Source: Terriglobia bacterium (GTDB lineage: Bacteria; Acidobacteriota; Terriglobia; Terriglobales; Acidobacteriaceae). From it: a DNA stretch of 64,000 nt. Within the stretch, counting starts at the first letter, position 1. Each line of letters starts with the position of its first letter. Shown in pieces: positions 22,594 through 43,175 of this stretch. Below the pieces are notes generated by a model. The model searched no databases, had not been told where the DNA came from, and saw nothing but the letters and a program-made list of their open reading frames with translations. The position numbers were made by a program, and so were the translations under genes. The stretch is taken from assembly GCA_020073495.1 (NCBI GenBank), contig JAIQFD010000004.1:609001-673000 (forward strand). Reading direction: 5' to 3'.

Positions 22594-23817
22594 ATGTCAA
22601 GAAGCCTGAAGATCACAATCCTAAGCGTTTCGGTAGCCGTCGTGTTGTTCGCCATCTGGGGAGGGCTGGGTGCGAAGGCCTCGACCAACGATGGCGCATA
22701 CCGCCAGCTCGGCGTATACAGCGAAGTGCTTTCCCGCGTCCGCACCGAGTACGTCGAGGACCCCGACATCCCCAAGGTCACCGACGGCGCCCTGCACGGG
22801 CTGCTGGAGTCGCTGGACGCCAACTCCAGCTACCTGAACCCCGCCCAGTACAAGGATTACAAAGAGCACAGAGCGGACGGGAAGGGGACCATCGGCGCGG
22901 CCGTCTCCAAGCGCTACGGCTACGCGGCGGTGATCTCGACCATCCCCGGCGGGCCGGCCGACAAGGCGGGGGTCGAGAAAGCCGACATCATCGAGGCCAT
23001 CGAGGGCCGCAGCACGCGCGAGATGTCCCTGGCGGAGATCCATACGCTGCTCACCGGCCAGCCGGGCTCCAACGTGAACCTTTCCATCGTGCGCACGCGC
23101 AAAGTGGAGCCGCAGAAGATCACCATCACGCGCAGTATCGTGACCGTCCCGCCCGCCACCGACAAGATGCTCGAGGACGGTATCGGTTACATCAAAGTGA
23201 ACGCCCTGAACAAGGGCAAGGCGCAGGAGATCGCCTCCAGGATCAAAGAACTGGAGAAGGGTGGCGCGAAGAGGCTCATCCTCGACCTGCGCAACGTGGC
23301 CATGGGCGAGGAGGACGAGGGCATCGCCACCGCCAACCTGTTCCTGAACCACGGGGTCATCACCTACATCCAGGGGCAGAAGTATCCGCGGAAGACCTTC
23401 GACGCGGATCCGGCCAAGGCCATCACCAACCTGCCGACCTTGCCGCTGGCGGTGCTGGTGAACCGCGGGACCGCCGGCCCGGCGGAGATCGTGGCTGCCG
23501 CGGTTCTGGAGAACGCTCGCGGCGACGTGGTCGGCGACAAGACCTTTGGCGTCGGCTCGGTGCAGAACCTGATCAACCTGCCCGACGGCTCGGCGCTTAT
23601 CCTATCGATCGCCAAGTACTACAGCCCCAACGGCAAGGCCATCCAGGACACCGCGGTGACACCCAACGTCCTGGTCGCCGACCAGGACGACGACGCTGTC
23701 CTGCCCGACGACACGGAGACGGAGCCGAATCCGTCCGAAGAACGCAAGACGAACAAGGAAGACGAACAGCTCCACCGTGCCATCGAACTGCTGAAGACCA
23801 AGCAGGTGAAAGCCTAA
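22594..23817 (+). CDS. Catalytically dead S41 (C-terminal processing) peptidase homologue
   Basis: A 407-residue exported or membrane-anchored protein: N-terminal helix, a linker, a PDZ domain (about residues 95-185) and an S41 fold (GIGYIKV, then LILDLRN). In active CtpA/CtpB/Prc enzymes the Ser (GSASASE) and Lys (TFGKG) lie 25 residues apart. Here those positions are Gly295 (GTAGPAE) and Val320 (TFGVG), exactly 25 apart. The NPGG loop after DLRN is also replaced (VAMGEE). The protein is therefore probably a pseudoprotease with a scaffolding or adaptor role. The C-terminal tail is acidic. Confidence 0.85.
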   Translation: MSRSLKITILSVSVAVVLFAIWGGLGAKASTNDGAYRQLGVYSEVLSRVRTEYVEDPDIPKVTDGALHGLLESLDANSSYLNPAQYKDYKEHRADGKGTIGAAVSKRYGYAAVISTIPGGPADKAGVEKADIIEAIEGRSTREMSLAEIHTLLTGQPGSNVNLSIVRTRKVEPQKITITRSIVTVPPATDKMLEDGIGYIKVNALNKGKAQEIASRIKELEKGGAKRLILDLRNVAMGEEDEGIATANLFLNHGVITYIQGQKYPRKTFDADPAKAITNLPTLPLAVLVNRGTAGPAEIVAAAVLENARGDVVGDKTFGVGSVQNLINLPDGSALILSIAKYYSPNGKAIQDTAVTPNVLVADQDDDAVLPDDTETEPNPSEERKTNKEDEQLHRAIELLKTKQVKA

Positions 23818-23820
23818 AGA

Positions 23821-23848
23821 AGTACTCAGTACTCGGTACTCAGTACCA
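23821..23848 (+). repeat. Heptamer array, forms of AGTACTC
   Basis: Four consecutive 7-bp units: AGTACTC, AGTACTC, GGTACTC and AGTACCA. It begins three bases after the S41 stop and is the inverted partner of the array at 23940-23967. Confidence 0.75.
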
Positions 23849-23852
23849 AGTG

Positions 23853-23874
23853 AGGCCGCGGGTGACTGCGGCCT
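23853..23874 (+). terminator. Hairpin after the S41 homologue
   Basis: AGGCCGC (23853-23859) pairs with GCGGCCT (23868-23874) around an eight-base loop and is followed by TCTCTATTG. It lies between the two heptamer arrays. Confidence 0.5.
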
Positions 23875-23939
23875 TCTCTATTGTGTGGGCCGCTGTGACT
23901 GAACGGGATGGGCTGCACGCACCTCCCGAATACGCCTCT

Positions 23940-23967
23940 GAGTACTGGGTACCGAGTACTGAGTACT
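23940..23967 (+). repeat. Heptamer array, forms of GAGTACT
   Basis: Four 7-bp units: GAGTACT, GGGTACC, GAGTACT and GAGTACT. They are complementary to the array at 23821-23848, so the two could fold into a long stem enclosing about 90 bases. Confidence 0.75.
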
Positions 23968-24003
23968 GGTGTATTCTGAATCCAGCTCTCCGCGAAGCAG
24001 GCC

Positions 24004-26229
24004 ATGGCGCTTTATTCGGATCTTCCCCCAGTCAGTGTCGGCGGACGGAAGTACGTCGGCCGGGTGGTCTTTGCGCTCATGATGCTGGCCGCGGCTGTCC
24101 TGGGCGCGGCGGCGGGCCTGCTCATCGTCTACACCACCGACCTGCCCCAGGTCACCGAACTGGAGCGTTACCGCCCCAGCTCCGTGACCGAACTGTACGA
24201 CGACCAGGGCCGCGTGATCGGCTCGTTCGCGCTCCAGCGGCGCGTCATCGCTTCCTACGAGGATTTTCCCAAGGTCCTGCGCGACGCGGTCATCTCCACC
24301 GAAGACAAGGATTTCGAGAAGCACTGGGGCATCAATTTCGGGCGCGTCCTGGGAGCGGCCTACAAGGACATCGTGGCCGGCAGCAAGGCGCAAGGTGCGT
24401 CGACGCTGACCATGCAGCTTTCCCGCAACCTGTTCCTCACCGCCGACCGCACCTACGGACGCAAGCTCCAGGAGATCATGCTCTCCATCCAGATCGAGCG
24501 GCGCTTCACCAAGCCGCAGATCTTCACTCTGTACTCCAACCAGATCTTCCTCGGGCACGGCGTGTACGGTTTCGAGGCCGGCGCCCAGTACTACTTCAAC
24601 AAGCACGCCAAGGACCTCAAGCTGGAGGAAGCGGCGATGCTGGCGGCCCTGCCCAAGGCGCCGAGCTACTACTCCCCCATCAACAATCCCGACCGTTGCT
24701 TCCGCCGGCGGAACCTGGTGATCGACAACATGGTCGAGGACGGCAAGATCACCAAGCAGGAGGGCGAGCGTGCCAAGAGGGCCCCGCTCAAGCTCAACGT
24801 GCAGACGGGTACCAACTGGCTGGCGCCCTACTTCGTCGAGGAAGTCCGCCGGTATCTGGAGAAGAAGTACGGCAGCGACGAGGTGCACAGCGGCGGCCTG
24901 CGCGTGTACACGTCACTCAACATGGATCTGCAGAAGGCCGCCAACCAGGCCGTGCTCGACGGCGTAGCCGCCTACGAACGCCGCCACGGATGGAAAAGCC
25001 GCCTGAAGAACGTGGTAGCGCTGGGCATCGCACTCGACGCTTACGACAATCCAGACTGGGAACAGCCCATCGAGACCAATGGCTATGTGCACGCGCTCGT
25101 CACCGCCGTTAGCGATAAGGCGGCGACGGTGAAGTTGGGACGCTACACCGGCGCCATCACCGCCGCGGAGATGAAGTGGACCGCCCACAAGAGGCCGATC
25201 GAGATCCTATCCGTGGGCGACATCGCGTACCTGAAAGTAGTGGCGCTCACGGCGGACGGCGCCGCCAAGGTCCAGTTGGAGCAGGATTCCGGCGCGCAAG
25301 GGGCGCTGCTGGCCATCGACAACTCCACCGGCGACATCAAGGCGATGGTCGGCGGGCGCGATTTCGATGAGTCCAAGTTCAACCGCGCCACCCAGGCGCT
25401 GCGCCAAGTGGGCTCGTCGTTCAAGCCCTATCTATACACGGCGGTGATGGACAACGGCGGCTCGCCCGACGATGTCGTCCTCGACGCCCCCATCACCTTC
25501 TCCACCGCCTCTGGCCCGTACACGCCGCACAACTACGACGGCAAGTTCGAAGGCAACATCACCCTACGGCGCGCCATCGCGTTCTCGCGCAACATTCCCG
25601 CGCTGAAGCTGGAGCAAAAGATCGGGATCGACAAGGTCATCGAGTACACACGGCGCTTCGGCATCACCTCACCGCTGCCGCCGGTGCTGCCGCTGGCGCT
25701 GGGCGCCGCCGACATCACCTTGTACGAGCAGACCGCCGCCTTCAGCACCTTTCCCAACGACGGCGTCCGCGTCACCCCGCGCTACCTCCGCAAGGTCACC
25801 GATTACGACGGGCGCGTGCTGGAGGAGGACTATCCTGAGGTAAAGGACGTCATCAGCGCCCAGACCGCGCGCGTGATGGTGTCGCTGCTGGAGGGGGTGG
25901 TGCAGCACGGCACCGGGTACGCGGCCACAGCGCTGAAGCATCCCCTGGGTGGCAAGACGGGCACCACCAACGATTTCACCGACGCTTGGTTCATCGGCTT
26001 CTCGCCTTCGATCACCTGCGGCGTATGGGTGGGCTTCGACGAGAAGAAAACGCTGGGCAACAGGGAGACGGGCGCGATGGCCGCGCTGCCCATCTGGATG
26101 CAGTTCATGAAGGTCGCCCTGGTCGGCCACGACAAGGAAGACTTCGCCCGGCCGCCGGAGATCCCGCGCAACATCTCCGTCAAGCTCGACACGCCGGATG
26201 TTTCTCCCGGAGACGGCGAAGCGCACTGA
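24004..26229 (+). CDS. Penicillin-binding protein 1A family, bifunctional
   Basis: A 741-residue peptidoglycan synthase: a short cytoplasmic tail, one helix (about residues 20-43), a GT51 transglycosylase domain (STEDKDFEKHWG, then GASTLTMQLSRN), a linker or OB-like insert (about 330-430) and a transpeptidase domain. The transpeptidase motifs are SxxK in GSSFKP, SxN in FSRN and KTG in GGKTGTTND. It polymerises and cross-links glycan strands on the outer face of the inner membrane. ATG 24004 follows a spacer with heptamer repeats. Confidence 0.96.
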   Translation: MALYSDLPPVSVGGRKYVGRVVFALMMLAAAVLGAAAGLLIVYTTDLPQVTELERYRPSSVTELYDDQGRVIGSFALQRRVIASYEDFPKVLRDAVISTEDKDFEKHWGINFGRVLGAAYKDIVAGSKAQGASTLTMQLSRNLFLTADRTYGRKLQEIMLSIQIERRFTKPQIFTLYSNQIFLGHGVYGFEAGAQYYFNKHAKDLKLEEAAMLAALPKAPSYYSPINNPDRCFRRRNLVIDNMVEDGKITKQEGERAKRAPLKLNVQTGTNWLAPYFVEEVRRYLEKKYGSDEVHSGGLRVYTSLNMDLQKAANQAVLDGVAAYERRHGWKSRLKNVVALGIALDAYDNPDWEQPIETNGYVHALVTAVSDKAATVKLGRYTGAITAAEMKWTAHKRPIEILSVGDIAYLKVVALTADGAAKVQLEQDSGAQGALLAIDNSTGDIKAMVGGRDFDESKFNRATQALRQVGSSFKPYLYTAVMDNGGSPDDVVLDAPITFSTASGPYTPHNYDGKFEGNITLRRAIAFSRNIPALKLEQKIGIDKVIEYTRRFGITSPLPPVLPLALGAADITLYEQTAAFSTFPNDGVRVTPRYLRKVTDYDGRVLEEDYPEVKDVISAQTARVMVSLLEGVVQHGTGYAATALKHPLGGKTGTTNDFTDAWFIGFSPSITCGVWVGFDEKKTLGNRETGAMAALPIWMQFMKVALVGHDKEDFARPPEIPRNISVKLDTPDVSPGDGEAH

Positions 26230-27705: not shown

Positions 27706-28413
27706 ATGCGACGCTTCTTCCGCTACGTGCTGATGGCGCTGGTGCTGCTGACGGTGATGCTGGTGTCGGCCATGACTGCCATGCGCCTGGCCATCCATGG
27801 GCGTGAGGTTGCGGTTCCCAAGCTGGTTGGTTTGAGCGTGGAGCAGGCGGAGCGCATCACCTCCGCGAACGGTCTGCTTTTGGAGGCCGAGAGCCGCTTC
27901 TACAGCAACACCGTACCGGAGGGGCACATCGTTTCGCAGTTGCCGGCGACGGGCATCCACGTGCGCCGCGGCTGGAAGATGCGCGTCGCGGTCAGCCTGG
28001 GGCCGCAGCGCGCCGTGATCCCCGACCTGGTCGGGCAAAGCCCACGCGCCGCCGAGATCAACGTTCGCCGGCGCGGCCTGGACGTGGGCGAGGTCGCGAT
28101 GGCGCACATCCCCCAGGCCCTGGCGGACGTGGTTGTCGCCCAGTCGCCTCCGCCCAACGCCGCCACCGTCACGTCGCCGAAAATCAACCTGCTGGTCGGC
28201 GTGCCCGAGCAAGCCCAAGCCTACGTGATGCCCAACCTTGTCGGCCGGCGTCTGGCCGAGGCGGCGCAGGCCATCCAGCAGGCAGGGCTGAAGCTGGGTA
28301 CAGTGACTGGCGCCGCGAACGGCGGTGTGCCCACCACCATCCTGAAACAATCGCCTCCGCCCGGACAGCGGGTCACGCCAGGGATGGCGGTCAGCCTCGA
28401 AGTGGCGAAGTAG
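27706..28413 (+). CDS. PASTA-domain membrane-anchored protein
   Basis: A 235-residue protein with an N-terminal helix (about residues 8-26) and three PASTA repeats (VPKLVGLS, IPDLVGQS and MPNLVGRR, each ending near SPPPG or QLPATG). PASTA repeats bind peptidoglycan fragments or beta-lactams. There is no kinase or transpeptidase domain, so this is an isolated sensor or scaffold in the periplasm. It is tail-to-tail with fmt. Confidence 0.88.
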   Translation: MRRFFRYVLMALVLLTVMLVSAMTAMRLAIHGREVAVPKLVGLSVEQAERITSANGLLLEAESRFYSNTVPEGHIVSQLPATGIHVRRGWKMRVAVSLGPQRAVIPDLVGQSPRAAEINVRRRGLDVGEVAMAHIPQALADVVVAQSPPPNAATVTSPKINLLVGVPEQAQAYVMPNLVGRRLAEAAQAIQQAGLKLGTVTGAANGGVPTTILKQSPPPGQRVTPGMAVSLEVAK

Positions 28414-41897: not shown

Positions 41898-42384
41898 GGG
41901 GGTACCCCCTCCCCCTCGATATGTCGTTCCAAAAGACTTACGAGGGGAGATATGTGAGATATGTGAGGAGGATGGGCGACGACATACTCCTACTTCCAGC
42001 ATAGCAAGTCGAGAGCATGCAGGGGGCAGGAGGCGGGCGGAGAAGCCATTGCGGATCAGCGGGTTACAGGAGCCGAAAATATTGTTCTTGACATAGCTTA
42101 AAGATATACAAATCCAGATTTTGCGCGGTGGTTTGTTTTCAAGCGGTTAGAGGGGCCTCACGCAGTGGACACAATTTCCCGTCTGTCATCCTGAGCGACG
42201 TGCGCCCCGGTTTTGGGCACACGAGCGAAGGATCTCGCCGGTGTGGGCATCCACGACGCCAGTCAATCGGTTTCTCCGGAAACCCAGACAGATTGACATC
42301 GCGGCTGCCCGAGACTCGCGAGATCGTTTGGGGAGACCTCGGGCTGAAGCCCGGGGCCAAACTCTTACGCCCGCTTCGCGGGCT
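41898..42384 (+). other. Spacer before the 124-bp repeat array
   Basis: No gene is recognisable. It contains two direct GATATGTGA repeats near 41950-41968, an AT-rich stretch near 42075-42120, and a separate dispersed-repeat type at about 42185-42236 that starts GTCATCCTGAGCG and ends GCGAAGGATCTC. A GGGCTGAAGCCC palindrome near 42341 begins the palindrome-rich zone. Confidence 0.6.
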
Positions 42385-43175
42385 GGACAGCCGAGGGCGG
42401 CTGTCCCACGCCGGGGCTAAAGCCCCGGTTCTTTTTTGCGCTCTGAACCCCGGCCTAAAGGCCGGGGCTTCCACCGGCCCTTCGTTTTTACGCCTGTTGA
42501 AGCGGGCTGGACAGCCGAGGGCGGCTGTCCCACACCGGGGCTAAAGCCCCGGTTCCTTGTTGCGCTCTAAACCCCGGCCTAAAGGCCGGGGCTTCCACCG
42601 GCCCTTCGTTCTTACGCCTGCTGAAGCGGGCTGTTCCTCGACTGAATGCCCCACCCCTTGTTCGCGGACTGAAGTCCGCGAATCCCGGGTCGCGGAGCGA
42701 GTCAGGGCTAAAGCCCTGACCTACCGAGCCCGGGCCCACCGCCCGAGGCTAAGTTCTTACGCGCGCTTCGCGGGCTAGACAGCCGAGGCGGCTGTCCCAC
42801 ACCGGGGCTAAAGCCCCGGTTTCTGTTTGCGCTCTGAACCGCGGCCTAAAGGCCGGGGCTTCCACCGGCCCTTCGCTCTTACGCCCGCTGAAGCGGGCTG
42901 TACAGCCGAGGGCGGCTGTCCCACACCGGGGCTAAAGCCCCGGTTCTTTTTTGCGCTCTGAACCCCGGCCTAAAGGCCGGGGCTTCCACCGGCCCTTCGT
43001 TTTTACGCCTGTTGAAGCGGGCTGGACAGCCGAGGGCGGCTGTCCCACACCGGGGCTAAAGCCCCGGTTCTTTCTTGCGCTCTGAACCCCGGCCTAAAGG
43101 CCGGGGCTTCCACCGGCCCTTCGTTCTTACGCCTGCTGAAGCGGGCTCGACAGCCGAGGGCGGCTGTCCCACACG
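42385..43175 (+). repeat. Tandem array of palindrome-rich 124-bp units
   Basis: Near-identical units start at 42385, 42509, 42777, 42900 and 43024, with a truncated one at 43148. The step is 123 or 124 bases except for a divergent block at about 42633-42776. Each unit has three strong hairpins in fixed order: GGACAGCC/GGCTGTCC, ACCGGGGC/GCCCCGGT and CCCCGGCC/GGCCGGGG, then a spacer ending AGCGGGCT. The divergent block carries two other palindromes, TTCGCGGACTGAAGTCCGCGAA-like and TCAGGGC/GCCCTGA. Frames through the array are repeats, not genes. Confidence 0.9.

Follow-up and report, generated by a model that had tools for sequence, protein, structure and literature searches.

An ancient CtpA-type pseudoprotease of the Acidobacteriota, a probable non-cleaving adaptor for peptidoglycan enzymes

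CTP proteases bind unfolded or C-terminal protein segments, with the PDZ domain acting as both gate and binder. In E. coli, Prc controls peptidoglycan enzymes including MltG, which is one of its substrates (PMC7481392). SddA is a possible Prc substrate (PMC12569750). In Pseudomonas aeruginosa an active CtpA (PaCtpA) is encoded in the envC-ctpA-PA5135 operon, of which PA5135 is the yibQ/sddA gene (PMC12569750). Either of two substitutions in PaCtpA, S302A or K327A, kills activity in vivo, and His84 comes within hydrogen-bonding distance in the active form of the enzyme; the affinity of PaCtpA(S302A) for its partner LbcA is nevertheless normal (PMC11021448), which makes binding without cutting a physically sound idea.

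The window analyzed here, a stretch of 64,000 nucleotides from a genome of 3.70 Mb, carries a gene for a protein of this kind, P0001 (Table 1), that has lost its active site. P0001 scores 132 bits against Pfam Peptidase_S41 (PF03572; cut-off 24) and three PDZ models exceed their cut-offs on the N-terminal side of the protease core, in keeping with the sequence-only reading, which held that fold and PDZ domain are retained. The best match by sequence among solved structures is PaCtpA (7rpq, 184 bits). Alignment to 7rpq bears out that Gly295 and Val320 occupy the positions of the catalytic Ser and Lys, in identity and in their spacing of 25 residues, and that the NPGG loop is gone, both as first proposed; a third active-site change, of His84 to Asn77, had not been recognized. 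(In the same alignment output, 7rqh has Ala in the Ser302 column, which is the published S302A mutant.) The loss of His, Ser, Lys and the NPGG loop is thus observed, and the absence of proteolytic activity is inferred from it. Either S302A or K327A alone abolishes PaCtpA activity, and the known mechanism is therefore not expected to survive the double loss in P0001.

Table 1. Features of the pseudoprotease gene and of the genes that follow it (positions in the window)
Feature	Coordinates	Strand	Basis or remark
Pseudo-CtpA (S41 fold), 407 aa, P0001	22594..23817	+	ORF from ATG to stop, Pfam, NCBIfam, structure alignment
N-terminal hydrophobic helix, residues 7-29, probable membrane anchor	22612..22680	+	Sequence; model helix 3-26
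Asn77 codon at PaCtpA His84 position	22822..22824	+	Alignment; His in 19/19 intact S41, 0/116 pseudoproteases
PDZ domain, residues 96-173	22879..23112	+	Pfam
Peptidase_S41 domain, residues 197-360	23182..23673	+	Pfam
VAMG replacing NPGG, residues 235-238	23296..23307	+	Alignment
Gly295 codon at catalytic Ser302 position of PaCtpA	23476..23478	+	Alignment; Gly in 101/116 relatives
Val320 codon at catalytic Lys327 position of PaCtpA	23551..23553	+	Alignment; 16 residue types in this column across the clade, Lys in 1/116
PBP1A-type bifunctional penicillin-binding protein	24004..26229	+	Immediately downstream of P0001
PASTA-domain protein	27706..28413	+	After PBP1A in part of the window's family

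P0001 is probably membrane-anchored, and a periplasmic location is inferred. Within the N-terminal helix, Ser13 (22630-22632) is kept in 96% of the pseudoprotease clade, where intact paralogues mostly have V, L or I, and Gly23 is 95% conserved in the clade; the conserved serine suggests that the helix makes specific contacts. The AlphaFold model of P0001, made from 14 sequences, is poor (pLDDT 57), and the geometry of the binding groove was not read from it for that reason. A Foldseek search with this model ranks CtpA structures first, but with low TM-scores of 0.3-0.45.

The catalytic loss extends well beyond this genome. Orthologues from the window's class, examined first, all lack the Lys and mostly lack the Ser, and phylum-wide sampling gave the same picture. 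His, Ser and Lys are all present in each of 19 intact S41 sequences used for comparison, whereas among 116 non-redundant relatives of P0001 the Ser is kept in 4, the Lys in 1, and both together, like the His84 equivalent, in none. Chance is excluded by these numbers, with Lys missing from 115 and Ser from 112 of the relatives. Structural residues (D75, D131, D231, R233, E298, G314 and P357) are near-invariant in the pseudoproteases, as they are in intact enzymes. In 43 genomes, mostly chosen because their best hits were weak or were intact proteases, a profile search revealed a second, shorter S41 protein without the Ser/Lys pair in most families; two rows added later (L187 and L192) have His in the His84 column and still lack Ser and Lys. 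Altogether such a pseudoprotease occurs in 65 of the 69 sampled Acidobacteriota family codes with data, and none was found in the samples of f15, f37, f39 and f69. In the most diverged rows (L220, L222, L240 and L252) the catalytic columns cannot be aligned with certainty, and many genomes in the sample look like fragmented metagenome assemblies. The counts cover Acidobacteriota only; a scan of genome contigs gave matches in Acidobacteriota alone, but its patterns were P0001-specific and it is silent on other phyla. Orthologues with intact Ser and Lys, which the sequence-only reading had named as grounds for abandoning its interpretation, were sought throughout the phylum, and the loss proved to be fixed, with f37 as the exception.

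In a careful tree of 77 rows with the catalytic columns masked, the pseudoproteases form one clade (support 100/100) against the intact Acidobacteriota paralogues (99/98), and the same division appears in a broader, quick tree of 94 rows (97 and 99); these phylogenies show a single-clade origin. The S41 proteins of f37 (L094:4943-6142 and L098:4939-6204), whose genes are EnvC- and YibQ-linked, keep Ser and Lys, with Phe in the His84 column and an NAGG motif instead of NPGG, and their f52 relative has Gly and Lys in the Ser and Lys columns. Although the quick tree nests f37, the AU test does not reject (p 0.505) a topology that places f37 and f52 outside the rest, so that it is undecided whether Ser and Lys were retained in f37 or regained; this family may have survived from before the loss or may have reversed it.

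Codon comparisons point firmly to strong purifying selection on the pseudoprotease in the window's class, with dN/dS of 0.02 to 0.105 for close pairs; the single intact-paralogue pair gave 0.13. Values are higher in f59 (0.32-0.57, roughly 0.3-0.57 among its pairs), f31 (0.18) and f46 (0.15), and f59 would appear to be under weaker constraint. Open frames were taken from stop to stop, however, and untranslated ends may inflate the estimates for these three families. A loss common to orthologues and purifying selection are what a conserved pseudoprotease should show, and both are present; a non-catalytic function is inferred.

The neighborhood of the gene ties it to cell-wall metabolism. Across the clade, an EnvC-like protein (coiled coil plus LytM/M23) is encoded directly upstream on the same strand in 31 families and a YibQ/SddA-type deacetylase directly downstream in 24, with both together in 18. 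The identities of these neighbors were checked with Pfam; EnvC is the best NCBIfam match of the upstream protein, yet below its cut-off. Of 46 EnvC-like proteins encoded next to the pseudoprotease, 31 do not have the first pair of LytM zinc ligands intact and in this resemble an amidase activator without enzymatic activity. In 16 families MltG is found no more than 3.5 kb from the pseudoprotease, mostly divergently transcribed and together with RuvX. None of these neighbors (EnvC, YibQ, MltG or PBP1A) accompanies the intact paralogues in any of 25 families. Because the corresponding P. aeruginosa operon has an active CtpA, the dead Acidobacteriota protein can be said to hold the CtpA slot. In two of the most diverged loci (L222:3775-4785 and L240:2222-3310), the open frame between EnvC and YibQ is barely or no longer detected as S41 by Pfam.

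The window genome departs from this layout: no YibQ was found in it, PBP1A lies downstream instead, its one M23 protein is far from P0001, and it has two Amidase_3 proteins. With YibQ missing and the sole M23 protein distant, a role with EnvC and YibQ cannot be the current one there. PBP1A is indeed next to P0001, as first noted; in the window's family, 22 of 27 genomes have it no more than 300 bp downstream of the pseudoprotease gene, and 25 of 27 have it within 1.2 kb on the same strand. As an ancestral partner it is not supported, since the adjacency is essentially confined to that family; the cell-wall connection inferred at first from PBP1A and from Ctp proteases elsewhere is thus stronger than supposed, and different, resting on EnvC, YibQ/SddA and MltG in other families. 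The intergenic stretch ahead of PBP1A (23820-23970) contains two AGTACT-type repeat blocks in inverse orientation, with a terminator-like stem at 23852-23875, and repeats and stem may leave P0001 and PBP1A uncoupled in this strain. On the other side of P0001 (19844-22335, minus strand) are two tandem MacB/FtsX-like permease genes, with no ATPase gene identified beside them. Elsewhere, window positions 42363-43174 hold 6.4 copies of a 124-bp tandem repeat rich in palindromic GC words.

The best explanation, which we consider probable though far from assured, is that P0001 is a CtpA-derived pseudoprotease of ancient origin, retained in the periplasm as an adaptor that serves peptidoglycan enzymes without cleaving them; that role is an inference, and there are no binding, localization or activity data. 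The active-site residues His, Ser and Lys, together with the NPGG loop, would have been lost early in the evolution of the Acidobacteriota and the protein then kept by selection. Its PDZ domain and tunnel are presumed still to capture unfolded or C-terminal segments of peptidoglycan enzymes or their activators, for which EnvC, YibQ/SddA and MltG, and in Acidobacteriaceae PBP1A, are the candidates. Clients that are held and not cut might be scaffolded, or protected through competition with the cell's own intact S41 protease, and a dead CtpA could also place clients with partners. The genes of the MltG and SddA families, known or suspected Prc clients, do neighbor the dead copy, and it is important to emphasize that such linkage speaks for a shared process and is not proof of contact. 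The suggestion of the sequence-only reading that a PDZ protein has been kept in non-proteolytic form is supported by the phylum-wide fixation of the loss and by purifying selection in the window's class; its scaffold or regulator role has only inference behind it, without binding data. A bolder version is possible but falls short of probable: that in almost all of the phylum the CtpA slot belongs to a specialized CtpA that does not cut, but binds EnvC, YibQ/SddA, MltG or PBP1A and, by holding them, controls the splitting of peptidoglycan, regulated proteolysis having turned into regulated binding.

The main rival to the adaptor is a regulatory subunit of the intact S41 paralogue (L002, for instance), with which P0001 would form mixed oligomers that tune or target activity. 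Intact paralogues are found in the same genomes as the pseudoprotease wherever they were sought, CtpA acts as dimers and hexamers (PMC8764530), and the C-terminal positions D390 and A396 are common to both groups. The intact paralogue is, however, a separate lineage of longer proteins, 33% identical to P0001 in its own genome, and its gene was not found beside the pseudoprotease or the neighbors of the latter, which leaves this arrangement unlikely though not negligible. That P0001 is instead a new enzyme, in which the old site uses other residues to catalyze proteolysis or some different reaction, is decidedly improbable. Some pseudoenzymes do regain activity with migrated residues (PMC10211241), and f37 has Ser and Lys; against this, the charged residues conserved in at least 95% of sequences (D75, D131, D231, R233 and E298) are conserved in intact enzymes too, and there is no conserved His, Cys or Lys in the pseudoprotease clade. 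An alternative catalytic set was looked for in the clade alignment and set aside, as no conserved candidate residues came to light. A relic without current function is less credible still: the drift of L222 and L240 and the raised dN/dS of f59 count in its favor, but the open reading frame is kept in 65 family codes and dN/dS is only 0.02-0.1 in the window's class. A sequencing or assembly error, or recent decay in one genome, has nothing in its favor and is refuted by orthologues, since the same loss recurs in class relatives and across the phylum.

Pseudoproteases, and non-proteolytic proteins of the S41 fold, are kinds already known, and an early survey of other families (PMC2605481) included a count of serine-protease homologues that lack catalytic residues. 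No paper describing this pseudo-CtpA clade was found, in a literature search that missed most subscription papers. P0001 scores 219.8 bits against NCBIfam TIGR00225 (C-terminal processing peptidases), barely above the cut-off of 218.6, and automatic annotation would therefore label as active a protease that is dead across the phylum. Should the adaptor reading be true, cutting is dispensable in the CtpA slot of a conserved cell-division operon, the binding role of a CTP protease is separable from proteolysis, and a major soil phylum has carried out a natural loss-of-catalysis experiment.

Among known systems, P. aeruginosa CtpA, which works with LbcA, is the top match of P0001 by sequence and by Foldseek and resembles it in fold, PDZ domain and size, and its operon provides the same slot that the pseudoprotease occupies in 18 Acidobacteriota families; PaCtpA has His84, Ser302 and Lys327 and degrades cell-wall hydrolases, whereas P0001 lacks all three. 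E. coli Prc/Tsp, which works with NlpI, likewise joins S41 and PDZ domains, but it is larger and active and only weakly similar (77 bits). The intact Acidobacteriota S41 paralogue (L002 in the genome of P0001 itself; TIGR00225, 303 bits) shares S41 and PDZ domains and the same genomes, and differs in its 500-600 residues, its intact His, Ser and Lys and its mostly intact NPGG. The interphotoreceptor retinoid-binding protein puts an S41-like fold to non-proteolytic use, as a vertebrate multi-domain ligand carrier with no cell-wall context. In Agrobacterium tumefaciens, ATU2773 is a YibQ homologue without zinc ligands in an envC operon (PMC12440217); it belongs to a different enzyme family from P0001, and offers the parallel of a partner in the same type of operon that has lost catalysis and may keep a regulatory role.
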